Shown here: positions 3,379-54,129 of the stretch, piece by piece
How positions within the stretch are numbered: the stretch's first letter is position 1
Layout of the letters: every line of letters starts with the position of its first letter
Assembly: GCF_006491595.2 (NCBI RefSeq)
Contig: NZ_VEVQ02000010.1
Span: 62,001-126,000, forward strand
Length of the DNA stretch: 64,000 nt
Direction of reading: 5' to 3'
From: Flavobacterium jejuense
GTDB taxonomy: Bacteria > Bacteroidota > Bacteroidia > Flavobacteriales > Flavobacteriaceae
Position numbers and translations under genes: made by a program
The notes under the pieces: generated by a model
What the model was told of the DNA's origin: nothing
Databases searched by the model: none
What the model saw: only the letters and a program-made list of their open reading frames with translations

Positions 3379-4062
3379 ATGAGTAGGATTCTCCTATTAA
3401 TTAATTTACTAATTGTTTTTCTTTCTTATTCGCAAGAGAATGAAAGAAAAATCCCCACAGATTCACTTTTTAGAGAAGATCAGTTTTATTTTTCAGTGAC
3501 CTATAATTTGTTAAGAAATACTCCTAGTGGATATTCTCAATATTCCTTTTCTTCAGGTCTAACTTTTGGTTTTTTAAGAGATATTCCTTTTTCAAAGAAT
3601 AGGGATTGGGCAATAGGTTTAGGTCTAGGTTATTCTTATAATGATATTAAACATAATTTAAAAATTGCTAATTTAGAGTCGTCAGAATCTAATGTATATA
3701 GTATAGATGATTCCTATAACAAAAGTAAACTTAGACTGCATTATGTTGAGTTACCTCTAGAAATTCGCTGGAGAAATGCAAGTTATGAGAGTCATAAATT
3801 TTGGAGAATTTATACCGGTTTTAAGGTTAGTTATTTGTTTGCTAGCAAAAGTATTTTTGAATCTAACACTGAAAGTTATAATATAAAAAATAGCAACGAA
3901 CTTACAAAACTTCAATATGGTCCCTATTTGAGTGTTGGTTATAATACTATAAATTTATACGCTTATTATGGTTTGAAATCTAATTTTGACAATGTTAAGA
4001 TGGAAAGTAGGGATTTAGAATTGAATTCTTTTAACGTGGGTTTTATCTTTTATATTTTATAA
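3379..4062 (+). CDS. Outer-membrane beta-barrel protein (porin/PorT-like family)
   Basis: Predicted exported protein of 227 residues. Residues 1-19 are a signal peptide ending SYSQ. The rest alternates hydrophobic and polar residues, with repeated aromatic strand ends (YFSVTYNLL, GFLRDIPF, GLGLGYSYND, YGPYLSVGYN) and a C-terminal FNVGFIFYIL strand. This is typical of small eight-stranded Bacteroidetes barrels annotated as porin family or PorT family. It follows the ExbBD terminator and probably has its own promoter. Its 3' end overlaps the convergent PAP2-like gene by 6 bp. Specific function is unknown, and it need not be the T9SS component PorT itself. Confidence 0.72.
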   Translation: MSRILLLINLLIVFLSYSQENERKIPTDSLFREDQFYFSVTYNLLRNTPSGYSQYSFSSGLTFGFLRDIPFSKNRDWAIGLGLGYSYNDIKHNLKIANLESSESNVYSIDDSYNKSKLRLHYVELPLEIRWRNASYESHKFWRIYTGFKVSYLFASKSIFESNTESYNIKNSNELTKLQYGPYLSVGYNTINLYAYYGLKSNFDNVKMESRDLELNSFNVGFIFYIL

Positions 4063-15084: not shown

Positions 15085-15723
15085 ATGAAAAATATAATAG
15101 AAAAGGCTCTTTTAGGCTCTTTTGCATATGAAGAATACAAAGCATTGGTAACAAAATTGATTGAAGAAGGTAGATCTACAGGAAATAATCAAAGTGAAGC
15201 TTTGTTGCATTATTCACAATTAAATGAAACTAGAATAAAGCGTTTGGATAAAACTATTGTTGTTGAAGAGTCAATCGCTTCAGACTTAAAACAACTGAAA
15301 AAGGAATTCATTTGGCTGGTAATTTCTGAAGGTTGGTGTGGTGATGCCGCTCAATTATTACCCATTATGAATAAAATGGCTGAATTATCGAATGCGATTG
15401 ATTTAAGAATTGTATTACGTGATGCTAATAAAGATTTAATGGATTTGTTTTTGACCAATGGTAGCCAATCTATACCTAAATTAATTATTTTAGATGCGAA
15501 TACTAAAGAGGTTGTGGCTGATTGGGGACCAAGACCAGAACCAGCAAGAAAATTAATAGCTGACTACAAAGCACAATATGGAGTAGTAGATGAACCTATT
15601 AAAATTGATTTGCAAAAATGGTATTTACAAGACAAAGGATTAACCACTCAAGAAGAATTAATGCAACTTTTGAGGAATCATATTATAAATGCTAATAAAA
15701 AAAATCAAGAAATATTACACTAA
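15085..15723 (+). CDS. Thioredoxin-like family protein
   Basis: Cytoplasmic protein of 212 residues with a thioredoxin fold: strand WLVISEGWCGDA near 76-87, then helix, then the cis-Pro segment SQSIPKLIILD near 127-137. Only one cysteine sits at the redox site (GWCGDA rather than CxxC), so any chemistry would be monothiol. This form is a known Bacteroidetes thioredoxin family group, with unknown substrates. A TAAATTTG -7 element lies 20 bp upstream. The 3' end overlaps the convergent DUF1501 gene by 9 bp. Confidence 0.82.
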   Translation: MKNIIEKALLGSFAYEEYKALVTKLIEEGRSTGNNQSEALLHYSQLNETRIKRLDKTIVVEESIASDLKQLKKEFIWLVISEGWCGDAAQLLPIMNKMAELSNAIDLRIVLRDANKDLMDLFLTNGSQSIPKLIILDANTKEVVADWGPRPEPARKLIADYKAQYGVVDEPIKIDLQKWYLQDKGLTTQEELMQLLRNHIINANKKNQEILH

Positions 15724-17313
15724 GAACTTCTTTTGAAGCAATGCTATGTTGTATTTTATTTCTAATATATAAGTTCCTTTTGCAAGAATCGTTTTTGGTG
15801 ATATGTTTAAAGTGTCGCCTAAAACAAATACTTTTTCGGCATAAATTAGTTTGCCTGCTATTGAATGAATAGTGACTTCAATTTCAGTGTTAATAAATTT
15901 TTTGAAGGCAACATTGATTTGATTATTTACAATTGGATTCGGAAAAAGCAAAATAAAATCATTATTGACTGGTGGGTTGAATGAACCATTTTTAAAAATA
16001 GGTAAAGTTTCAAAACTGGAACCTAAAACGGATGAGGATTGTTCGTCTGTCATACATAGCCAGTCTTTCATAATGGTAGCATAAAGTTGTCTGAAATCAA
16101 ATTGCATGGGAACTTGTTGGTTTACTGCTGCATTTTGTGGTAAATCAGGTGAGGAGCCAATCATTCCAGAAACAGGATGATCCGTTCCGATGACATTGGC
16201 AACACCAGTATTTAAAGAACTTCCAAAAAAGATGACTGGAGCACTAGAACCATGATCGGTTCCTAAGCTGTCATTGCTTTTTATTCTTCGTCCAAATTCG
16301 CTAAAAGTCATGCCTGTTACTCTATCTTCTTTACCCATTTGTTTTAAATCAGCTTGAAAAGCACCAATTGCTCCTGATAAGATAGATAAATTTTCTGGTT
16401 GTCTTCCCAGTTTTCTGTCTGATTCCATGATTTGATTTTCATGTGTATCAAAACTTTTATGATGATTGACAATGTAAATAGGCGTCTGTAAACCTCCATT
16501 AATTAATCGAGCAACAATTTTTAGTTGTGCTGCTAACTTGTTATCAGGATATTCAGTAGTTTGCTCTTGTGGAACGTTGTATGCGGTTTGTATGGTTTCT
16601 TTGTAAGCATTACTTTGATCTTTCATTAATCGCAAGAAAGTAAGTTCTAAGCCATAATCGGTATTGGGTGCTGGATCAGTAGTTTCATTAATGACATTTA
16701 GTAAATCATTAGGATCTGGAGCACTGTATCCCATATTTATATTTGGTCCTTGTAAAGAAAAAGGTAAAGTAGAGCCAATTTGTACTGCTAAAGGATCTCT
16801 CATGTCACTATTTGGATAGGCTTCAGGATAATTGGGATAAATAGAATCCAAAGCTCTTCCAATCCATCCTGTATCTAATGTTTCGTTACTTTGAGATCCA
16901 GTAAACCAAATGTCAGTAGCCCTAAAATGACTATAACTAGGATTAGGATAAGATACTCCTTGTACAATCATTAATTCTCCTAAATTATATAGTTCTTGCA
17001 TTTCAACCATAGAAGGGTGCAAACCAGTAGTTGGATTGTTGTTCAAAGCTAAAACTTCGCTTTCATCAATTAGAATATTTGGTCTTGCGTTAGATAGCTC
17101 AGTCCATTTATCTCGTGGAAAAACAGTATTTAAACCATCATTTCCACCACTCATTTGTACAATGACAAGGATCTTGCCACAATTGATTGCGGCATTTGCT
17201 AGGGTTTGTAAATTGCTACTCTCTAATTGAGAAGAGGCTAAAACAGGAATTTTATTAAATAATAATGGTGTAGCAACTAAAGCGGACGTTTGTATAAATT
17301 TTCTTCTTTTCAT
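15715..17313 (-). CDS. DUF1501 protein with T9SS type A sorting domain
   Basis: Exported protein of 532 residues. The N-terminus MKRRKFIQTSALVATPLL has a twin-arginine and a hydrophobic stretch, as in Tat signals. The central DUF1501 region (about 40-440) is related to the alkaline phosphatase/sulfatase fold (QMSGGNDGLNTVFP, HRATDIW-like and TDHGSSAPVIFFG segments). The last 75 residues, from about 455 (LLFPNPIVNNQINV ... GTYILEIKY), are a type A sorting domain for the type IX secretion system. It lies 10 bp after the DUF1800 gene, forming a two-gene operon. The pairing of DUF1501 with DUF1800 is conserved in many bacteria, but the biochemical role is unknown. Confidence 0.88.
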   Translation of the reverse strand: MKRRKFIQTSALVATPLLFNKIPVLASSQLESSNLQTLANAAINCGKILVIVQMSGGNDGLNTVFPRDKWTELSNARPNILIDESEVLALNNNPTTGLHPSMVEMQELYNLGELMIVQGVSYPNPSYSHFRATDIWFTGSQSNETLDTGWIGRALDSIYPNYPEAYPNSDMRDPLAVQIGSTLPFSLQGPNINMGYSAPDPNDLLNVINETTDPAPNTDYGLELTFLRLMKDQSNAYKETIQTAYNVPQEQTTEYPDNKLAAQLKIVARLINGGLQTPIYIVNHHKSFDTHENQIMESDRKLGRQPENLSILSGAIGAFQADLKQMGKEDRVTGMTFSEFGRRIKSNDSLGTDHGSSAPVIFFGSSLNTGVANVIGTDHPVSGMIGSSPDLPQNAAVNQQVPMQFDFRQLYATIMKDWLCMTDEQSSSVLGSSFETLPIFKNGSFNPPVNNDFILLFPNPIVNNQINVAFKKFINTEIEVTIHSIAGKLIYAEKVFVLGDTLNISPKTILAKGTYILEIKYNIALLQKKFLV

Positions 17314-17323
17314 TTTCCTCAGA

Positions 17324-19165
17324 TTACATTAATTGAAATTCAGCTAATTGAATAATTGTTAAAAACAAACTGTTTAAACGAGAGGTTACAGCTGATTTTT
17401 TGGTTTCATCGGATGGATCTTGCGTGTAATTATTCCATGCTTGTGTCCAATAATAATCAGTTGCTTGACCAGAAAGTAAATTCTGTGTCTTTATTATATT
17501 TTTTTGTTCCATACTTAAATCAACTGGCAAAAGGTATTTGATACATTCATCAACTAATAAATTAGGATCCAAGCAAGTGGAATTTGGAAATTGAGAAACA
17601 AATTGTAAGGTATCTGCTTTTATTTTAGTTGTTAATCCATTTTTAGTTAATGTTATGCCGTAAAAAGTATAGTCGAGATAAGCAAATCGTTTCTGAATGG
17701 TGTTGGAGTTAATCCAATATTCATGAAAGGAAGGATTTTGATAAAAAGCTTGCCAACCAGCAACATTAGGAATGCTTCCCATGCTTTGACCCATATCAGA
17801 TAATAGTCTGTCTAATCGTTCCCATAAATAATATTGAGCATTGTAATTTGTAGGATCAGAAACGTCTGTCTCGATAGAAAAGGTCCTTATAAAACCAATA
17901 AACAAATCTAATGGTGATTTAATATAAACCCCTCGATTTGCCATGTCGTAAAAATGCTGACTTTTGAAAAGTTTTTCTAAAACAGGCATAATTTCCCAAT
18001 TGTTAGCTATAAAATGTTGTGCTAATGGTTCAATTATGTTTGCTTCTATGTAGGGATCAATATCATAATACACAAAAAAACGATATAATCTTCTACAGAT
18101 ATATTGTGAAACCACTTCAGATTTAGCAAAGATCATATCAATGAAAGCATCAAGTTCTAATGCTCCATTATTTGGAATAGTTGTATTGTTGAAAAAGGGA
18201 GAAAACTGTTTGTCGGTTTCATCGTGTTTGTTAGCTACAAAATCTGTAGTTGGATTAGAGGTGTTTAAATTTTGTACTCTCCAACCTGTTAATACTTTTG
18301 CAGCTTCAATTACATCAGGTTGTGAATATTGACTATTGGATCCTTTTCCTAAAGTGAATAACTCCATAATTTCGCGCGCAAAATTTTCATCAGGAGCTGT
18401 TTTTGTATTGGCTTGATTGTTCAAATAATACATCATTGCAGGTTGAGTAGCAATACTTCTTATCAAAGTTTTAAAATTTCCACCAGAATAGTCTCTTAAG
18501 TTTTGAATGTATTGATAACATACTCTAGCCGTATTACCAGAAATATATTGGTTTGAACTCGCTTTAATGAAATCAAAATCAACAGGAATAAAATGATACC
18601 AAAATAAGACCATTTTTTCTCTAATAGTGATATCTTGTTTTATAGCTAAATTGGTCATCCATGAAGTTAAGCTATTCATTCGTTTTCTGTCTGTAGTATT
18701 TCCTGTTTCAGCATCTACAAATGGATCAATGGTCCAATCTTCTCCATAGGGTAAACCATTTTCATCTGGCTCGTCTAGTTCATAATTGTTTATAGGTGGT
18801 GAAGGTGGTGTAAAATCAATATTCAAAATCAAATCCACAGCTTGAGACATAGACAAATTAGCAATAGTGTCTAAATCTGTCTTTTTGAAACCAAAACCAG
18901 TTCGTTTTAATAAATGTATTGCTTGTCTGTCAGTCCATGGACCTGTATATAGTTCTAAACCAGATGTAACAGGATTAACGCGCTCTAATTCTGCATTTGT
19001 TTTTGGTTTTTGTTTGGAATTTTTTTCTTGAGCAAGATATTTCCTACCGTTGAATACTTTTCGGGAATATTTTTCAAATAAGGGATCTGTTTGGGTACTA
19101 TCGAACTCAGAATTTAAAAATAATTTACGAATGAGCGCTCTCCGAGTAAAGGTCTTGTTTCTCAT
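17324..19165 (-). CDS. DUF1800 family protein
   Basis: The 613 residues contain the DUF1800 core: HLLKRTGFGFKKTD near 85, the REKMVLFWYHFIPVD segment near 180, NFAREIMELFTLG near 265 and VIEAAKVLTGWRV near 290. DUF1800 proteins are exported or envelope-linked proteins of unknown activity, nearly always encoded beside DUF1501. A basic N-terminus with tandem arginines (TRRALIRKLFL) lacks a clear hydrophobic signal core. It is first of two genes. Its promoter carries the ACCCC-N8-GGGGT palindrome shared with the two RNA units at 23941 and 24275, so I infer control by the nearby TPR kinase/LuxR regulator pair. Confidence 0.88.
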   Translation of the reverse strand: MRNKTFTRRALIRKLFLNSEFDSTQTDPLFEKYSRKVFNGRKYLAQEKNSKQKPKTNAELERVNPVTSGLELYTGPWTDRQAIHLLKRTGFGFKKTDLDTIANLSMSQAVDLILNIDFTPPSPPINNYELDEPDENGLPYGEDWTIDPFVDAETGNTTDRKRMNSLTSWMTNLAIKQDITIREKMVLFWYHFIPVDFDFIKASSNQYISGNTARVCYQYIQNLRDYSGGNFKTLIRSIATQPAMMYYLNNQANTKTAPDENFAREIMELFTLGKGSNSQYSQPDVIEAAKVLTGWRVQNLNTSNPTTDFVANKHDETDKQFSPFFNNTTIPNNGALELDAFIDMIFAKSEVVSQYICRRLYRFFVYYDIDPYIEANIIEPLAQHFIANNWEIMPVLEKLFKSQHFYDMANRGVYIKSPLDLFIGFIRTFSIETDVSDPTNYNAQYYLWERLDRLLSDMGQSMGSIPNVAGWQAFYQNPSFHEYWINSNTIQKRFAYLDYTFYGITLTKNGLTTKIKADTLQFVSQFPNSTCLDPNLLVDECIKYLLPVDLSMEQKNIIKTQNLLSGQATDYYWTQAWNNYTQDPSDETKKSAVTSRLNSLFLTIIQLAEFQLM

Positions 19166-19196
19166 ATGCTCAGTGTTTTAGAAGGTTAGTTTTATA

Positions 19197-19243
19197 CAAA
19201 TAAAAGCGTTCCTTCTTAAATTTTAACCCCCAGAAAAAGGGGT
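19197..19243 (-). promoter_or_regulatory. DUF1800-DUF1501 promoter with ACCCC-N8-GGGGT operator
   Basis: On the minus strand ACCCCTTTTTCTGGGGGT (19243 to 19226) is followed by a 20-nt spacer and TTTTATTTG (19205 to 19197), a -7-like element 31 bp before the DUF1800 ATG. Operator length (18 bp), strand and 20-nt spacing match the two copies at 23941 and 24275 exactly. The operator would be centred near -50, a place typical for an activator. Confidence 0.72.
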
Positions 19244-19298
19244 GTCTAAGATTTTTTAAATACTAACCAAATGCGACAATATTGCAGAAAATCGTCTT

Positions 19299-19868
19299 TT
19301 AGAAATTGAATAAACAAATTCCAATAGAAAAATTGTATACTTTGTCTAGATAATTGCCTACAGTATAGCCATGATAATTACCTTCTATAAACAAACAAAT
19401 GCCATCGCCATTTTCAAGACCAATACTTGCTTTTTGATAGCTTCCTTGTAAATTTCCTCTTCCAATGGCAAAGGATTGACCAAGTCCGTATTGAGCTGTA
19501 ATTCTTGTTTCTTGTCCAATTTTTGGGCTGATTCTGAAATTAGTGAAAACGGGTAAGGCAATTAATTTGTAACTCGCATAAAAATCGATTCCACTGTTTA
19601 CACTTACTCCAATCCATTTGTTATGATGCAGACCGTAACCAAATTTTGCTCCAACTCCGTCTGGAATAAACCAATTGTCATTTGTACTGCCATCTGCAAA
19701 GGTTTCTCCTCTTTTTTTGTTTCCTTTAAAGGGAATGGTTAAATCAAATTGAGTAAATGTTATTTTTTGAGTTGAAGAAACAACCTTTGATGTATTGATA
19801 GAATCCGTATCTTGACTGTAGCCTAAATAGCTTATAAAAAGTAAAATAAAAATAGTTTTAGTTTTCAT
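19299..19868 (-). CDS. Small exported beta-rich protein, unknown function
   Basis: The 189 residues start with a signal peptide (MKTKTIFILLFISYLGYSQ). The rest has short amphipathic strands ending aromatic or Phe (YNFSIGICLFNF at the C-terminus), which suggests a small outer-membrane barrel. No named family is recognised. The ATG at 19868 is chosen because it gives a proper signal peptide. It overlaps the end of truB by 11 bp (ATGAAAACTAA holds both start and stop), indicating translational coupling to truB. The longer frame up to 19928 would run deep into truB. Confidence 0.72.
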   Translation of the reverse strand: MKTKTIFILLFISYLGYSQDTDSINTSKVVSSTQKITFTQFDLTIPFKGNKKRGETFADGSTNDNWFIPDGVGAKFGYGLHHNKWIGVSVNSGIDFYASYKLIALPVFTNFRISPKIGQETRITAQYGLGQSFAIGRGNLQGSYQKASIGLENGDGICLFIEGNYHGYTVGNYLDKVYNFSIGICLFNF

Positions 19869-20556
19869 GTATAGTGTGTTGTTCAAAATCTTCAGGAGAA
19901 ACAGCATTTTCAACGGAATATTTTCCAATTTTGGTCCTTCTTAAAGCAGTTAAATGGCCACCTGATTGCAAAGCAAGTCCAAAATCATAAGCAATGGAAC
20001 GAATGTAGGTTCCTTTACTGCATTTTATTCTAAAATTAATTTCTGGTAAAGCGATACGAGTAATTTCAAATTCGTAGATAGTTGTTTTTCTGGTTTTTAT
20101 TTCTACTTCTTCACCAGCACGGGCATGTTCGTATAAACGTTTTCCATCTTTCTTTATAGCAGAAAAAACAGGAGGCTTTTGATCGATTTCTCCTAAAAAT
20201 TGTTTTGTGGTTTCTAGAATCAGTTCGTTTGTAAGATGACTAGTTGGAAAAGTAGCATTAATTTCAGTTTCTAAATCGTAGGAAGGTGTAGTTGCACCAA
20301 CTGTAATCGTACCAGTATATTCTTTTTCTTGAGCCTGAATTTCAGTAATAGTCTTTGTGAATTTCCCAGTACAAACTATAAGCAATCCTGTAGCTAAAGG
20401 ATCTAAAGTACCTGCATGACCAATCTTGAATTTCTTTGGTAAACCGTAGTGATTTTTTAATAAATATTTTAATTTATTTACGGCTTGAAAAGAGGACCAT
20501 TTTAAAGGTTTATCAATTAAGAGCACTAGTCCATTTTGGAAATCTTCTGCTGTCAT
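19858..20556 (-). CDS. truB: tRNA pseudouridine(55) synthase
   Basis: Makes pseudouridine at position 55 in the T-loop of tRNAs. The 232 residues contain the signature GHAGTLDPLATGLLIV near 46-61, whose Asp is the catalytic nucleophile, then the KEYTGTITVGATTPSYD strand and the GTYIRSIAYDFG segment near 180. It is shorter than E. coli TruB because the C-terminal PUA-like part is reduced, as is usual in Bacteroidetes. Its stop is coupled to the start of the next gene. It begins directly at the end of uppP, with no gap. Confidence 0.95.
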   Translation of the reverse strand: MTAEDFQNGLVLLIDKPLKWSSFQAVNKLKYLLKNHYGLPKKFKIGHAGTLDPLATGLLIVCTGKFTKTITEIQAQEKEYTGTITVGATTPSYDLETEINATFPTSHLTNELILETTKQFLGEIDQKPPVFSAIKKDGKRLYEHARAGEEVEIKTRKTTIYEFEITRIALPEINFRIKCSKGTYIRSIAYDFGLALQSGGHLTALRRTKIGKYSVENAVSPEDFEQHTIHEN

Positions 20557-21342
20557 TTAGATAATGGTTAATTCTTTGATGAAAAAATGAATGATTAAGA
20601 TGGCTAAACCTGCAAGAATTCTGTAATAACCAAATATTTTAAATCCGTGTTTGGTTAAATACCCAATGAATGATTTAATTGCAATTAAGGCTACAACAAA
20701 ACCTACTATGTTTCCTATTATTAATAAGTTGGTTTGATCTTGGGTTAGTTCAAAACCAGCTTTATAGTAATCATATAATTTTTTTACGGTTGCTCCAAGC
20801 ATTGTAGGAATGGCAAGGAAAAAAGAAAATTCGGCAGCTGTTGTTCGAGAAAGTTTTTGACTCATTCCACCTACAATACTAGCACCACTTCTAGAAACAC
20901 CAGGAATCATGGCTAAACATTGAAAAAAACCAATCTTTAATGCTGTTAAGTAGGATATTTCGGTATTTTCAGAATTACCAAACCATTCGTCTACTTTTAA
21001 AAGTAGTATTCCGCCAATAATTAATGAAATAGCAACTACTATTGGACTTTCAAGCATACTATCAATAAAGTCATTTAACAGTAATCCAAATACAACCGCA
21101 GGGATAAAGGCTACAAATAACTTAAAATAGAAATCCATACTTTGGAAAAAACGTTTAAAATAAAGAACAACTACGGAAAGTATGGTTCCTAACTGTATAA
21201 CAATTGTAAAAAGTTTAGTAAAATCATCACCAGCAATTCCGAAAAAGGAAGAGGCAATAATCATATGACCTGTAGAGGAAACTGGTAAAAATTCAGTTAT
21301 TCCTTCTATAATAGCGAGAATAATAGCTTGTAGTGTATTCAT
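20557..21342 (-). CDS. uppP: Undecaprenyl-diphosphatase
   Basis: Integral membrane enzyme that dephosphorylates undecaprenyl pyrophosphate to recycle the lipid carrier for peptidoglycan and other surface polymers. The 261 residues have about eight helices. The two catalytic regions are [16 protein letters not shown] (13-28) and [12 protein letters not shown] near 147-158. The stop abuts the truB start. A minus-strand TATTTTTG element (21350-21357) lies only 8 nt before the ATG, so the transcript may be nearly leaderless. In many flavobacteria this gene follows DUF3098 and ftsX; here a regulatory module on the other strand separates them (from memory of gene order). Confidence 0.95.
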
Positions 21343-21438
21343 AATTTTACAAAAATATGTTTTTTTATAATAGTTTTAGTTGTTTTTTTGTAGTTTGGAA
21401 AAATTTGATGTTGTAACGTTTATTAAGAAATAGTTTTA

Positions 21439-23307
21439 ATGAAAATTAACTTTGGTATTGTTTTAATCTTATTATTTCAATCTTTAATAGCTCAAAATCC
21501 TAAAAGGAATGAATTTGAGACTATTAAGGAAAAAGTTGCCGAACTTTATATTAACTCTCCTGTTAAAGCAAAAAAAGAAGCCTATTTGCTTCATGAAGTA
21601 GCTGAAACCAACGATGAAAAAATAATTTCATATCGATATCTAGGCTATATTTATGATTTTTCTGGAAATGTAGATTCTGCACGTTATTTTTTTCAAAAGC
21701 AACTTCAATTTTCAAAAGAAAAATTTTTAAATAAAGAATTCTATTATCAAGCAGTTATTGATTATGCAAATTGGGGAACCAATTATGTAGATAGTAATGT
21801 TATAATTGAAGAACTAACTCAGGCTTTACTCACGATAAATGAAGCAGAATTTCCTCAGCAAAAGGGTTTAATGTATATGCTTATGGGAGACTTATTTTTG
21901 AGGAAAAATCAACTTGAAAAATCGAACGAATATTTTGATAAATCATTTAACCTTATTAAAGGAAATGCTGCCGAACTTGATTATTATCTTAGAAAAAGTG
22001 AGATAGCACTTAAAAAAAGAGATTATCTATCAGCTAAAGAAAACTTACTAAGTGGATTTGCACTTTTCAATGAAAAAGAGAAGTACGAATATTCTTTATA
22101 TCTTAATAAGTTAGGCTATGTCTATTTATTATTAGGAGATATTGATAATTCAAATCAATGTTTGTATGAATCTTTACATTATCAAAAAAAGAATGGTTTC
22201 TTGAACTTGTTTTCTAGTACTTATTTGAATTTATCACATTTAGCAAAAATTGAGAAGAACGAAAGATTAGTAAAATTCAATTTAGATAAAGCTCTTGAGG
22301 CTAATCAAGGTGATGTTCAAGTTTTGAAAGATATTTATTTAGCTTACAAAGACTATTATTCTAATCAAGGAGATTTTATTAATGAAAACGAAAGTTTAGC
22401 ACAGTTTAATAAAATTAATGATAGTATTTTTAATGTTGAAAAAGCGAAATTAGGTATCGATTTAGAGTCGAGATTTCAATTAAGAGAAAATAAGAAAGAA
22501 TTAGCTTTAAAAGAGAAAATAATTCAAAAAGAGCAAAAAATAAAATCATTATTAGTACTAGGATTTGTAATGTTACTTTTATTATTGTTGGCTTTAATAG
22601 CTTTATATTTTAATAAAATAAAGACACAGAAAAAACTTAGAAATAATCAAAAATTACTTCACGAAGAGCAATTAAAATCCATGCTAGAGAATCAACGAAC
22701 AGAAATCATAAAGGAGAAGATAAAAGCCAAGCTTGAAGAACGTTCAAAACTATCTTTAGAACTACATGATGGAATTGCTAATGAGATTGGTGCTTTAAAA
22801 GTGTCTTTAACAAATGAATATGCACTCGATGCAACAAATATAAATTCAATTGTAGATAAAATAGACAAACTCTATAACGAAGTAAGAGATTGGTCTCACG
22901 ATTTACATTCCGATAAAATATTAGATATAGAGTTTTCCCAATTAATAAATAGTCTTTGCTTAATCGCTGAAAAAAAAGGAATAAAAACGACTAAGAATGT
23001 ATTAATTGATGAAAAAATTAATACTTTAGAAGATTCATTTTTATTAAATATTTATAGAATTTTACAAGAAGCTATTAATAATGTATTAAAACATGCTAAT
23101 GCTACTGAGATACAATTAGACATAATACAATCAGAAACAGAATTGTTTCTGATAATTAAGGATAATGGTATTGGGTTTTCAAAAAACAGTTCCAAATTAG
23201 GTATTGGATTAAAAAATATAGAAAAAAGAATAGAAATATTAGGAGGGAAATTCAATATAATGTCTTCAGAAAAAGGAACAACATTAGATATAAAACTACC
23301 ATTATAA
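21439..23307 (+). CDS. TPR sensor histidine kinase (HisKA_3/NarL-partner type)
   Basis: Sensor kinase of 622 residues. A signal peptide (1-18, LFQSLIAQ) is followed by a helical TPR-type periplasmic region (about 25-355), a membrane helix near 371-393, a charged coiled coil, and a HisKA_3 dimerisation domain with ERSKLSLELHDG (His about 443). An HATPase follows, with NNVLKHA and DNGIGFSKNSSKLGIGL motifs. The stop is 1 bp before the response regulator start, so the pair is one operon. The signal sensed is unknown. Kinases of this build normally pair with LuxR/NarL-type regulators, as here. The module stands on the strand opposite to its neighbours uppP and DUF3098. Confidence 0.92.
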   Translation: MKINFGIVLILLFQSLIAQNPKRNEFETIKEKVAELYINSPVKAKKEAYLLHEVAETNDEKIISYRYLGYIYDFSGNVDSARYFFQKQLQFSKEKFLNKEFYYQAVIDYANWGTNYVDSNVIIEELTQALLTINEAEFPQQKGLMYMLMGDLFLRKNQLEKSNEYFDKSFNLIKGNAAELDYYLRKSEIALKKRDYLSAKENLLSGFALFNEKEKYEYSLYLNKLGYVYLLLGDIDNSNQCLYESLHYQKKNGFLNLFSSTYLNLSHLAKIEKNERLVKFNLDKALEANQGDVQVLKDIYLAYKDYYSNQGDFINENESLAQFNKINDSIFNVEKAKLGIDLESRFQLRENKKELALKEKIIQKEQKIKSLLVLGFVMLLLLLLALIALYFNKIKTQKKLRNNQKLLHEEQLKSMLENQRTEIIKEKIKAKLEERSKLSLELHDGIANEIGALKVSLTNEYALDATNINSIVDKIDKLYNEVRDWSHDLHSDKILDIEFSQLINSLCLIAEKKGIKTTKNVLIDEKINTLEDSFLLNIYRILQEAINNVLKHANATEIQLDIIQSETELFLIIKDNGIGFSKNSSKLGIGLKNIEKRIEILGGKFNIMSSEKGTTLDIKLPL

Positions 23308-23308
23308 A

Positions 23309-23926
23309 ATGCCATATAAAATAATCATAGTTGACGATCATAAAGTTTTTGCAGAAAGCATAGCATCAATTTTAAGGAACAAATATGAAGTGGTTGAGGT
23401 TACTTCAGTTGAAAAAGCCCTGCAAATTGTAAAAACATTTTCTCCAGATTTAATTCTTACAGATTTGCAATTGCCTGATCAAGATGGTTTTTTTTTAATT
23501 AAATCAATAAAAAAACAAGGGTTGCCAGCAAAAATTCTTGTTTTAAGTAGTCTTGCCAATCAAGCAACTATTCATAAATTGGTACAACTTGAAGTAAATG
23601 GCTTTCTAAATAAAAATGTTTCAAGTATCGATTTATTAAATGCTATTCAGAAAATAATTCAGGGAGAATCTTATTTTCAGGCTGATATTTATAACGATTA
23701 TATTAAGAATTTTAAATTAAAATCTGAAAAAGTAAACGAAATTACTCCTAGAGAGATTGATGTTTTGAAATTAATTATTGAAGAGAAAACAACAAGTGAA
23801 ATTGCAGAAATTTTAAATATATCTAGTTATACTGTAGAAGGTTATAGAAAAAACTTATTGTATAAAACAGGAGCTACAAATGTTGTTGGACTTATAAAAT
23901 ATGCAATGAAAATTAACTTAATTTAA
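23309..23926 (+). CDS. LuxR/NarL-family response regulator
   Basis: DNA-binding response regulator of 205 residues. The receiver domain (1-120) has the acidic pair D9-D10, phospho-acceptor D52 (LILTDLQLPDQDG) and a Lys near 103. The C-terminal GerE-type HTH (about 143-203) reads EITPREIDVLKLIIEEKTTSEIAEILNISS in two parts, with recognition helix near SSYTVEGYRKNLL. It is cotranscribed with the kinase. An ACCCC-N8-GGGGT operator starts only 15 bp after its stop, in front of an RNA-like unit, and two more copies occur nearby. I infer these are its binding sites. NarL-type regulators usually bind inverted repeats as dimers, which fits the palindrome. Confidence 0.93.
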   Translation: MPYKIIIVDDHKVFAESIASILRNKYEVVEVTSVEKALQIVKTFSPDLILTDLQLPDQDGFFLIKSIKKQGLPAKILVLSSLANQATIHKLVQLEVNGFLNKNVSSIDLLNAIQKIIQGESYFQADIYNDYIKNFKLKSEKVNEITPREIDVLKLIIEEKTTSEIAEILNISSYTVEGYRKNLLYKTGATNVVGLIKYAMKINLI

Positions 23927-23940
23927 AATAAAAATAACAA

Positions 23941-23987
23941 ACCCCTTTTTTCAGGGGTACAGGAGTTTTGTAAATGCGTTTACTTTG
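23941..23987 (+). promoter_or_regulatory. Palindromic operator and -7 element of RNA unit A
   Basis: ACCCCTTTTTTCAGGGGT (23941-23958), a 20-nt spacer and TTTACTTTG (23979-23987). The same 18+20+9 layout is found at 24275-24321 and, on the minus strand, at 19243-19197. Confidence 0.75.
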
Positions 23988-23992
23988 TACTT

Positions 23993-24083
23993 GACAAACA
24001 AATAAACAAACAATTCAGGGCAACTGTAAATTAGATTAAGAAATACCCTTATTTGCCTATGCTGATTAAGGGTATTTTCTTTT
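23993..24083 (+). ncRNA. Candidate small RNA A (~90 nt)
   Basis: Predicted to start 5-8 nt after the -7 element and to end at a 10-bp perfect hairpin (AATACCCTTA 24042-24051 with TAAGGGTATT 24067-24076) followed by TTTTCTTTT. The 5' part is unstructured, made of ACAAACAAATAAACAAAC-like sequence. The middle CAGGGCAACTG can form a three-pair mini-hairpin exposing GGCAA. No open reading frame with coding character is present. Promoter, near-identical twin and terminator together support a real transcript. Function and targets are unknown. Confidence 0.7.
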
Positions 24084-24125
24084 ACATTAAAAAGACTTTA
24101 AAAAAAAGAGAAAATTTACTCACAA

Positions 24126-24237
24126 TAACTTTGTAAATAAATGTAGTAACCCTTTTTTAGAGCAATTAAAAGAAAATTAGTTGGACATTTTTTTGTGTAA
24201 CACCTTTTTTAGTTCATCTAAAAGAGGTGTTTTTTTT
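24126..24237 (+). ncRNA. Candidate third small RNA between the twin units
   Basis: TAACTTTG (24126-24133) matches the -7 consensus TANNTTTG exactly. About 65 bp further on, a 13-bp hairpin (AACACCTTTTTTA 24199-24211 with TAAAAGAGGTGTT 24219-24231) is followed by a T run. The predicted transcript of about 100 nt, from roughly 24138, has no sizeable reading frame. It lacks the ACCCC-N8-GGGGT operator, so its control would differ from the twin units. Support is weaker, because there is no second copy to compare. Confidence 0.45.
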
Positions 24238-24270
24238 GTCTGTTTTTATAGGTTTTTCTGAGAAAAAAAG

Positions 24271-24420
24271 ACAAACCCCTTTTTTCAGGGGTATAAAGGA
24301 AATTTAAATGGCTTTACTTTGCATAACAAACAAATAAACAAACAAACAATTCAGGGCAACTGTAAATTAAATTGAGGAATACCCTTATTCACCTACGCTG
24401 AATAAAGGGTATTTTCTTTT
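24271..24420 (+). repeat. Promoter-plus-RNA repeat unit, copy B
   Basis: Second copy of the unit at 23937-24083, in direct orientation with about 190 bp between them. It differs mainly in the spacer before the -7 element, one extra ACAA in the leader and compensating changes in the terminator stem. Confidence 0.88.
24275..24321 (+). promoter_or_regulatory. Palindromic operator and -7 element of RNA unit B
   Basis: ACCCCTTTTTTCAGGGGT (24275-24292) is identical to copy A. A 20-nt spacer of different sequence and TTTACTTTG (24313-24321) follow. Confidence 0.75.
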
Positions 24421-24422
24421 TT
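24326..24422 (+). ncRNA. Candidate small RNA B (~95 nt)
   Basis: Twin of candidate RNA A. The ACAAACAAATAAACAAAC leader is one repeat longer, and the TTCAGGGCAACTGTAAATTA block is unchanged. The terminator stem is longer (AATACCCTTATTCA 24378-24391 with TGAATAAAGGGTATT 24399-24413, one bulge), because the loop-side bases differ in a pairing-preserving way. The T tail abuts the stop of the convergent DUF3098 gene, so the hairpin could serve both. Confidence 0.7.
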
Positions 24423-24423
24423 A

Positions 24424-25669: not shown

Positions 25670-25723
25670 CAACTGATTTTTTTAAGAAGCGAATGGCTAG
25701 TGCATTATTGGAATCCATTTTCC

Positions 25724-25789
25724 CGCTTTCCATTCTATCTTTTCTTTTTTTCTTTAAAAAAACAAAAGGATGCCATTACAATCGGGGCT
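25724..25789 (+). repeat. Dispersed intergenic hairpin element, copy 1
   Basis: The sequence runs from CGCTTTCC through a CTTTTCTTTTTTT/AAAAAAACAAAAG hairpin to GGATGCC and ATCGGGGCT. Its blocks match the element at 42631-42695 in the same order. Similar elements are, from general knowledge, frequent between genes in Flavobacterium genomes. Confidence 0.7.
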
Positions 25790-25856
25790 AAAAAGGAAAC
25801 CATTGGCTTTTTTGGAATCAAAATAAAAAGGAATAATTCAAGCATTAGGCAAAATT

Positions 25857-42569: not shown

Positions 42570-42630
42570 TTTAATTAAATTCTATTTTATTTGTAGGAGC
42601 ACAAAATAGACCTTCGGTTGAAAAGCACAC

Positions 42631-42695
42631 CTGCTATCCACTATATCTTTGCTTTTTTAAAGAAAAAAGCAAAGGATGCCGTTCCTATCAGGGCT
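42631..42695 (+). repeat. Dispersed intergenic hairpin element, copy 2
   Basis: CTGCTATCCACTATATCTTT begins the element. It has a 12-bp stem (CTTTGCTTTTTT with AAAAAAGCAAAG) and the blocks GGATGCCGTTCC and TATCAGGGCT, matching 25724-25789. It lies in the 285-bp gap upstream of the LuxE-like gene. The rest of that gap shows only the terminator below. Confidence 0.75.
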
Positions 42696-42805
42696 ATACA
42701 TCACATTTCCAATTTCTAGATGCCCTTTTCAAGGAAAGTAAATACAAACCAAAAAATTATATTCTGGCTAACTAAAATTGAAATCTTTGCAAAAGTATAA
42801 AATAA

Positions 42806-53100: not shown

Positions 53101-54129
53101 TTTTTTCCAACTAACATCAGTTGTGTAATTGCTAAATCCTCTGTATAAATCTATTTTGTTTAATTTTGATATTTCAAAATCTTCTTGTTTACAACATGGA
53201 GCAATGCCTTCTTTTTTGAATTTTTTTGCTAAATACTCTTGTTCATATTGTCCTGGAGTAGGGATAAAAAAAGCTTTTTTGCCAAGTTGAGCTAAATCCA
53301 TAACAGTAGTGTAGCCTGATCTGGATAAAATTTTGTCACTTTGATTAAAAGCTATTTCAACCTGTTCACTATTCATGAAATTGTAATAGGTAATGTTGTT
53401 TTCTTCAGTTACTTTTTGTTCTTTTTCAATTGTACCTTTTATAAAGAGTGTTTTTTCTTTAGATCCTTTTAGTTCGGTAATTAATTTTTCTTCTAATAGT
53501 GTTCTTTGAGGTTCTGGACCAGAGAGAATAATCATTAAATCATATTTTTTTGGGCTCGTTTTTTTGTAAAGTCTACTTAAAGGACCAATATATTTAATAT
53601 TTTTAAAGGGTTCTTCTAAGTGACCTAAATCACCAGAGAGATTTGGACTTTTTTCTTTATCAGGAACCCAACATTCAGTAAATTTTTTTACAAAGTGATG
53701 GTGTAATTTAGTAGTGAACCATGTGGTATTACCTGTTAAAACATTTAGTTGGTGGGTAATAAATACTGATGGGACATCTTTTGAAAAAACACCTAATCTA
53801 TTATCTGAAATTATTCCTTCAATTTGGTATTTGTCAATAAGTTTTTTAGTAACTTTTTTTTCTTGCTTTATAGCTTTTATAATGTCTGGAATTTGAGAAA
53901 TCAATTTTATTTTAAAATTACTCCCTTTTTCGGCATAGGTAACATTGTAAGATGGGAGCATAATGGAAATCAAATGCGGAAATTCTTTTTTTAATAATTC
54001 AAGAGCTACTCCGTCAGAGGCAATAATGGGCTCGAAACTATTTTTCTCTAGCGCTTTTATAATAGGGATACACCTTGTAGCATGACCTAATCCCCAATTA
54101 AGAGGGGCAACAAGAATTTTTTTTGACAT
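53074..54129 (-). CDS. Glycosyltransferase of the GT28/MGT-like type
   Basis: The 351 residues have a GT-B fold. The N-terminal APLNWGLGHATRCIPIIKAL (6-25) is the nucleotide-sugar glycosyltransferase opening. A middle LSGPEPQRTLLEEKL segment is near 206, and the C-terminal donor-site stretch SRSGYTTVMDLAQLGKKAFFI is near 270-290, followed by PTPGQYEQEYLAKKFKKEG. It resembles MurG/YjiC-like enzymes and the UDP-GlcNAc transferase-related proteins of Bacteroidetes. Acceptor unknown. It is encoded 12 bp downstream of an LpxH-like gene, so it may act on envelope lipids (inference). Confidence 0.84.
   Translation of the reverse strand: MSKKILVAPLNWGLGHATRCIPIIKALEKNSFEPIIASDGVALELLKKEFPHLISIMLPSYNVTYAEKGSNFKIKLISQIPDIIKAIKQEKKVTKKLIDKYQIEGIISDNRLGVFSKDVPSVFITHQLNVLTGNTTWFTTKLHHHFVKKFTECWVPDKEKSPNLSGDLGHLEEPFKNIKYIGPLSRLYKKTSPKKYDLMIILSGPEPQRTLLEEKLITELKGSKEKTLFIKGTIEKEQKVTEENNITYYNFMNSEQVEIAFNQSDKILSRSGYTTVMDLAQLGKKAFFIPTPGQYEQEYLAKKFKKEGIAPCCKQEDFEISKLNKIDLYRGFSNYTTDVSWKKLFCLFQSK

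Follow-up and report, generated by a model that had tools for sequence, protein, structure and literature searches.

The 64,000-nt stretch of the Flavobacterium jejuense genome analysed here (contig NZ_VEVQ02000010.1, positions 62,001 to 126,000; hereafter the window) raises the question of why a palindrome of the form ACCCC-N8-GGGGT stands three times around a single two-component system, each time at the same distance from a promoter-like box, and which protein would read it. A first-pass annotation of the sequence had proposed that the neighboring NarL/LuxR-type response regulator (RR) binds this palindrome and activates two small RNAs (sRNAs) and an operon encoding a DUF1800 and a DUF1501 protein. 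The distribution of the site, its fixed spacing, its co-conservation with the regulator and the conservation of RNA core and terminator are observed features of these loci. From the sequence comparisons we consider it very likely that the palindrome, centred near -42.5, is bound by the adjacent RR, which would thereby switch on a very small regulon confined to this locus; we place far less confidence in any mechanism for the RNAs. In the best reading of the comparisons, RNAs would have taken the place of a secreted hydrolase among the outputs of this regulon, or been added to it.

Each of the three palindromes matches the pattern exactly and lies where the annotation had placed it (Table 1). 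At one mismatch or fewer 0.18 copies are expected in the window, and three copies were reached in none of 100 shuffles. The whole-genome search that the annotation had suggested (4.75 Mb, 74 contigs) returned only the same three exact copies, all within the same 5 kb, and no exact match for the reversed-pattern control. The gap of 20 nt between palindrome and the following 9-mer is likewise exact in all three cases (23959-23978 and 24293-24312 for the two sRNA copies, 19225-19206 for the minus-strand copy). The 9-mer had been described as TTTAYTTTG; the DUF1800 copy reads TTTTATTTG instead, and the consensus across loci is TTnnTTTG. The placement of the RNA start 15 bp after the regulator gene has to be corrected, as it is the first palindrome that starts 15 bases past the RR stop codon (14 bp between) and the predicted RNA start lies near 23992. 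Regarding the claim of fixed spacing with variable spacer sequence, the spacing stands, and the two sRNA spacers do not count as independent since one sRNA unit is a duplicate of the other, with 83% identity along 153 nt.

According to the accessible part of a study on F. psychrophilum, sigma-A promoters there read TAnnTTTG, with the -7 box at -12 to -5 (PMC9723704). By this rule the palindrome would cover about -51 to -34, with its centre at -42.5, over the -33 position. This is the place of a class II activator. The second base of the -7 box is T in 21 of 21 sites compared below (TTnnTTTG), where the Bacteroidetes sigma-A consensus TAnnTTTG has A, and such a weak -7 match would fit an activator-dependent promoter.

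Carriers of the system were identified by kinase and RR. Of 299 genomes of the genus, 48 contain a match to the kinase at E <=1e-30, with identities of 56-100% in six of them only, namely our own genome (G000), Flavobacterium sp. NRK F7 (G061), F. profundi TP390 (G278), G232, G090 and RU_4_13 (G149); all other matches are at most 34% identical. In RU_4_13, a fragmentary metagenome-assembled genome that is only 76% complete, the kinase is broken into two fragments with stops. Among 397 genomes of the family only our own and G661, from another genus (50% identity), reached E <=1e-60. A scan of a named collection of 84,980 species for the RR gave five loci at 84-88% identity, in sp. J27, NRK F7, F. 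profundi, sp. 9AF and RU_4_13 (88%), with the remaining nine at most 28% identical; as a scan with two strict peptide patterns, it does not pick up relatives like G232. Together with the window and G232 these make up seven loci with an RR at least 74% identical.

In the seven loci 23 CCCC-N8-GGGG words are present, and in 21 of these, read in one orientation, TTnnTTTG, which has a frequency of 0.0016 per position, begins 39 nt past the palindrome start. At none of the 21 sites does the box occur at any other offset between 25 and 59. One of the two box-less words is a second register of a counted site and the other lies at window position 54091. Mean identity of the 20-nt spacer is 39% over the 21 sites and 59% over the five DUF1800 promoters.

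Linkage was examined by searching eight genomes for the palindrome followed by 21 N and TTNNTTTG, allowing up to two mismatches. Among the 28 matches, 21 have no or one mismatch and every one of these is located at the regulator locus (3 in our own genome, 4 in NRK F7, 4 in F. profundi, 3 in J27, 5 in 9AF, and 1 each in G232 and RU_4_13); G090 has no match to the palindromic pattern at this stringency. The seven matches with two mismatches comprise the other strand of one locus site and six scattered positions, the reversed control also giving six. With the strict pattern, matches were found in five of the 299 genus genomes, our own, NRK F7, F. profundi and two non-carriers, G188 and G199, which share one sequence resembling an intrinsic terminator. 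The 397 family genomes contain, at one mismatch or fewer, 30 matches in 29 genomes besides our own, none close together, against 15 for the reversed control, and the pattern is therefore near background outside carriers, with a modest excess. The two warning signs named in the first-pass annotation were many unlinked copies without the regulator and orthologous regulators without the element; what we found were the 21 linked copies, one terminator-like match shared by two non-carriers, the element beside all seven regulators of at least 74% identity, and a variant beside both distant ones.

Two rival readings have to be weighed here. A different DNA-binding protein might read the palindrome, with the RR gene a mere neighbor, given that binding by the RR is what we infer and that NarL-type sites are, to our understanding, hard to predict. 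However, an unlinked factor would not need a site confined to this locus in carriers, genomes without the kinase give near-background scattered matches, and the variant element accompanies diverged orthologues with other targets, which makes this reading very unlikely. Alternatively, the palindromes could act at the RNA level, as hairpins of terminators or attenuators, or be left over from duplication. The sRNA copies are indeed duplicates, and the G188/G199 match, in which ACCCC...GGGGT is followed by a T run, does look like a terminator hairpin. In promoter orientation, however, no T run follows the window palindromes, which lie upstream of the predicted starts; their arms are retained although both the spacer and the centre have diverged, and the DUF1800 copies have little in common with the sRNA copies apart from arms and box. 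We regard the hairpin or relic reading as barely credible and have rejected a terminator function for the palindromes of these loci, while it fits the G188/G199 match.

The adjacent RR has the domains of the NarL/FixJ type, a receiver and a C-terminal GerE helix-turn-helix (HTH), both over the Pfam cut-off; no AAA+ family was listed in the domain search. Residues D9, D10, D52 and K102 (the phosphoacceptor Asp and acidic pair included) as well as parts of the HTH are invariant in 7 of 7 aligned orthologues, which have the HTH residues TVE..RK.L..KT...NVVGL in common. The sensor kinase has a C-terminal HATPase_c domain, a TPR-like N-terminal half (TPR models under the Pfam cut-off) and, judged by eye, a transmembrane stretch ahead of the kinase part; a receiver or HPt domain was not found in the domain search. 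The kinase would receive a signal, probably tied to an extracellular glycan such as chitin, and, by analogy with its family, phosphorylate the RR at D52. An RR dimer would then bind ACCCC-N8-GGGGT over the place of the -33 element and recruit the housekeeping polymerase to the TTnnTTTG box in a class II type of activation. The putative outputs comprise a tandem pair of non-coding RNAs, each about 92-95 nt long, together with the exported DUF1800 and DUF1501 proteins, and the RNAs would most likely act in trans through the conserved core GGGCAACUGUAAAUUAAAUUAAG, without Hfq.

Table 1. Coordinates of the genes, putative regulator sites, promoter boxes and predicted RNAs in the window.
Feature	Position	Strand	Basis
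Sensor histidine kinase, 622 aa	21439..23307	+	PF02518 (HATPase_c) E 6.7e-10, profile search
NarL/LuxR-type response regulator, 205 aa	23309..23926	+	Response_reg 1.4e-23, GerE 9.9e-14
DUF1800 protein, 613 aa, first gene of presumed operon	17324..19165	-	PF08811 E 6.7e-85
DUF1501 protein, 532 aa, T9SS C-terminal sorting domain	15715..17313	-	PF07394 E 1.1e-15; TIGR04183 over cut-off
Putative regulator site 1, ACCCCTTTTTTCAGGGGT, ~-51 to -34 of sRNA 1	23941..23958	+	pattern search and site comparison
Putative regulator site 2, ACCCCTTTTTTCAGGGGT	24275..24292	+	pattern search and site comparison
Putative regulator site 3, ACCCCTTTTTCTGGGGGT read on minus strand	19226..19243	-	pattern search and site comparison
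Predicted -7 element TTACTTTG of sRNA 1	23980..23987	+	box rule -12 to -5 (PMC9723704, accessible part)
Predicted -7 element TTACTTTG of sRNA 2	24314..24321	+	site comparison
Predicted -7 element TTTATTTG of DUF1800 operon; predicted start near 19192	19197..19204	-	site comparison
Predicted sRNA 1: CAAA-rich leader, core GGGCAACTGTAAATTAGATTAAG, terminator hairpin from ~24042	23992..24083	+	start inferred
Predicted sRNA 2, duplicate of sRNA 1	24326..24420	+	83% identity

Regarding the targets in close relatives, the number of RNA units after the RR gene varies: two in the window, three each in NRK F7 and F. profundi, two in J27, four in 9AF and one in RU_4_13. In G232 a single site precedes a 528-aa ORF with a type IX tail, which occupies the slot of the RNA array between the regulator and a DUF3098-type gene. 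This slot shares the palindrome, the spacing and a CAAA-type leader, and its terminator stem is similar. The Pfam EndoS TIM barrel model stayed below cut-off (E 0.0018) and the match to PDB chitinase A covers about 70 residues (E 2.2e-4); because both GH18 matches are weak, a firm GH18 assignment was rejected and the ORF is named GH18-like only.

The more distant relatives G090 and G661, with regulators 47% and 42% identical (tblastn), have the gene row kinase, GH19 chitinase (E 1.9e-50 and 1.6e-47, respectively) and regulator, with an S74 gene also at the locus. Ahead of both the GH19 and the S74 genes of both genomes stands the variant CCCCTGAAAACC, and TTTG (TTAG in one of four sites) follows at the offset seen for the palindromic sites. 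With no or one mismatch the variant occurs twice in G090 and twice in G661, all at the locus, and in none of six other carriers searched; exact matches among 279 genus genomes are confined to G090 (two) and G009 (one). Three of the 42 genus genomes with a variant match at no or one mismatch were inspected (G227, G071 and G090), and the sites in G227 and G071, located inside or at the end of ORFs, were dismissed, kinase or regulator not being found there. We read these loci as a single regulator lineage, in which half-site and spacing would have been conserved and targets would have changed.

A tentative extension, which we hold to be possible rather than probable, is that a gene for a secreted glycan hydrolase, controlled by the same two-component system, gave way to the RNA array. 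The promoter, the leader with AAACAAATAAACAA and the terminator of AATACCCTTA type would have been kept and the coding part lost, and a regulator that may once have switched on a chitinase-type enzyme would now make tandem regulatory RNAs and would have gained the DUF1800-DUF1501 operon. Terminators of the CCCTTA type are, however, also present elsewhere in the genus, at sites with no relation to this locus. The signal is, as a guess from the neighbors only, related to chitin or a GlcNAc-glycan, because in some Proteobacteria DUF1800-DUF1501 pairs are found together with genes for chitin synthases according to the available portion of one report (PMC5122149), GH19 and S74 genes (twice) and a GH18-like ORF are the other putative targets, and the CusS/CusR system described below points the same way.

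The two window RNA units both end with a hairpin and a T-rich tail. Over 15 units, unit length, measured from a point 2 nt upstream of the predicted start, ranges from 84 to 151 nt, the number of CAAA words per unit from 2 to 21, and the core GGGCAACTGTAAATTAAATTAAG or a close variant is present in 14. Covariation supports three of nine terminator pairs. The single RU_4_13 unit (L026, 5500-6110) contains 21 CAAA words and no core, and is either a repeat expansion or a decaying unit. Between the window units, 24126-24238 (plus strand) contains a complete TAACTTTG box and a strong hairpin that has a T run, and no palindrome; this may be a third unit in decay or an RNA of other origin.

How the array acts was considered under two rivals to a trans-acting RNA. 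It could be a DNA decoy titrating the regulator, for which the up to four tandem units (9AF) would be suited, or it could encode tiny peptides, since, of the 14 core-bearing units, 6 read LGNCKLN with stop in one frame of the core and 11 read [ND]CKL[ND] with stop, with a synonymous AAC/AAT change. A decoy, however, needs neither a conserved transcript core nor covarying terminators, and coding by the core is unlikely because an upstream in-frame ATG is present in only 1 of the 14 core-bearing units, so that we judge decoy and peptide together unlikely. A role as protein sponge, in which the CAAA-repeat leader would bind an RNA-binding or translation factor as CsrB/RsmZ bind CsrA, is doubtful but less easily dismissed: CAAA words occur in each of the 15 units and in multiple copies, and RU_4_13 does without the core. 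On the other hand a leader of this type also stands ahead of the GH18-like ORF in G232, and it is the core that aligns well and the leader that varies in length. The sponge would not be CsrA-like, because 12 of the 15 units contain no GGA and the remaining 3 a single one each.

A homologue model built from the 14 core-bearing units gave 36 matches at E <=0.01 in the 299 genus genomes, with eight at <=1.3e-10 and the next at 3.9e-4. The eight are the arrays of our own genome, NRK F7 and F. profundi, all training sequences. Nine of the 28 weaker matches were viewed (the strand viewed for L101 and L104 is probably not that of the match), and in none was a CAAA leader or palindromic promoter seen; the weaker matches were rejected as homologues, several of the nine resembling terminators after tRNA or coding ends. 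A methionine-synthase-like gene with the core 12-mer in two genomes was also rejected as target, as the 12-mer lies in sense and not in pairing direction. No Hfq was found over the cut-off in our own genome (best 14.5 bits, cut-off 27), compared with 5 of 14 control genomes. In the leader of the DUF1800 operon, CTAAC(C/T)TTCTAA (19178-19189, minus strand) is present in five of five array-clade genomes with differing flanks; a duplex search of this leader against the RNAs revealed no consistent pairing, the smallest p among 14 tests, reached in one of them, being 0.010 against mononucleotide shuffles.

Several observations weigh against regulation of these targets by the RR as proposed, or limit what the comparisons can bear. 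The invariant HTH residues are presumably in part family-wide. Neither the copies within an array nor closely related species count as independent events. Mean arm identity of 96% over the 21 sites, and with it the CCCC/GGGG invariance, is partly by construction because CCCC and GGGG were themselves the criterion for collecting the words, which is not the case for the position of the box. A site ahead of DUF1800 is present once in each of the five array-clade genomes where the region is covered (that of RU_4_13 is not) and is missing in G232; the DUF1800 branch is thus either not ancestral or was lost. With hydrolase-gene targets in other lineages in addition, regulon membership is not fixed. 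The boxes of the four variant sites, GAATTTTG, CAACTTTG, GACCTTTG and TTATTTAG, follow nAnnTTTG or TTATTTAG and not TTnnTTTG. At up to two mismatches the variant gave 17 matches in eight genomes against 16 for the reversed control, and at no or one mismatch 46 matches in 42 of the 279 genus genomes against 36, and it is weak evidence outside its own locus. On the RNA side, the RU_4_13 unit is without the core, and an antisense search with the core 12-mer hit 16 places in five genomes, of which seven are the arrays themselves and the other nine look coding by eye, none being shared; no RNA target emerged from this or the duplex search.

Among known systems, GacS/GacA-RsmX/Y/Z of gammaproteobacteria is similar in that a LuxR/NarL-family regulator drives a few duplicated sRNAs via an 18-nt site. 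The sequence of the site differs, it lies near -42 here and far upstream in Gac/Rsm, and a protein operon is included here. Furthermore, the RR scores 85.3 bits on the GacA model NF007018 (cut-off 280) and is not a GacA/UvrY orthologue, the RNAs are not GGA-rich, and the kinase is without a detected receiver or HPt domain. The system would work like GacA-Rsm and lacks the features that define membership, GacA/UvrY orthology and repeated GGA motifs. LuxO-Qrr1-5 of Vibrio likewise places a redundant set of small RNAs under two-component control. LuxO is a sigma-54 activator and the Qrr RNAs use Hfq, whereas here we found a GerE-type regulator, a -7 box resembling the sigma-A type and no Hfq over cut-off. 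The closest solved proteins by profile are VraR, EvgA and NarL (E 1.8e-21, 7e-19 and 2e-16), which share receiver and GerE HTH, and the best 25 of 97 NCBIfam models are all far under their cut-offs. The hydrolase loci of G090, G661 and G232 have orthologous kinase and regulator and the same element-to-promoter distance, with secreted hydrolase targets in place of RNAs and, in G090 and G661, the element ACCCCTGAAAACC.

Tandem duplication of rsmX-1/rsmX-2 is on record in the available part of one publication (PMC7911923). F. johnsoniae deleted for the two-component system CusS/CusR no longer grows on chitin and lacks the secreted chitinase ChiA; the system belongs to an eleven-gene utilization locus with SusC/D pairs, and the accessible sections of that report mention no small RNAs (PMC5127042). 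Independent small RNAs such as Rfp18 are described in F. psychrophilum, with no link to this two-component locus in the accessible text (PMC9723704). A comparable system was not found in the open-access literature, which was covered mainly by titles and abstract openings, with subscription journals mostly outside the scope. To our knowledge few regulator-site-promoter triads are known in Bacteroidota, and sRNAs under a dedicated two-component system are rarer still. With the whole apparent regulon contained in 5 kb and one exact geometry, binding, class II activation and RNA function are testable in one construct, and DUF1800-DUF1501, an exported pair of unknown function, would gain a regulatory context shared with chitinase-type genes.

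No sequence relatives were found in PDB for the DUF1800 protein (E <=0.1) or the DUF1501 protein (E <=0.01), and the AlphaFold model of the former (pLDDT 37) is unusable. An ORF at 19299-19928 (minus strand), between truB and DUF1800, is 62-65% identical in four array-clade genomes, with no Pfam match and no tblastn match in the G232 locus. In our own genome two further ACAAACAAATAAACAAACATGAA words lie just past terminator-like hairpins, near 3827 and 4599 of contig C9 (L017 and L016). No Rfam family reached gathering score for the RNAs; the only Rfam matches in the window are tRNA and two Flavo-1 RNAs (RF01705), both on the minus strand, at 25715-25793 (71.7 bits) and 42623-42699 (67.4 bits).

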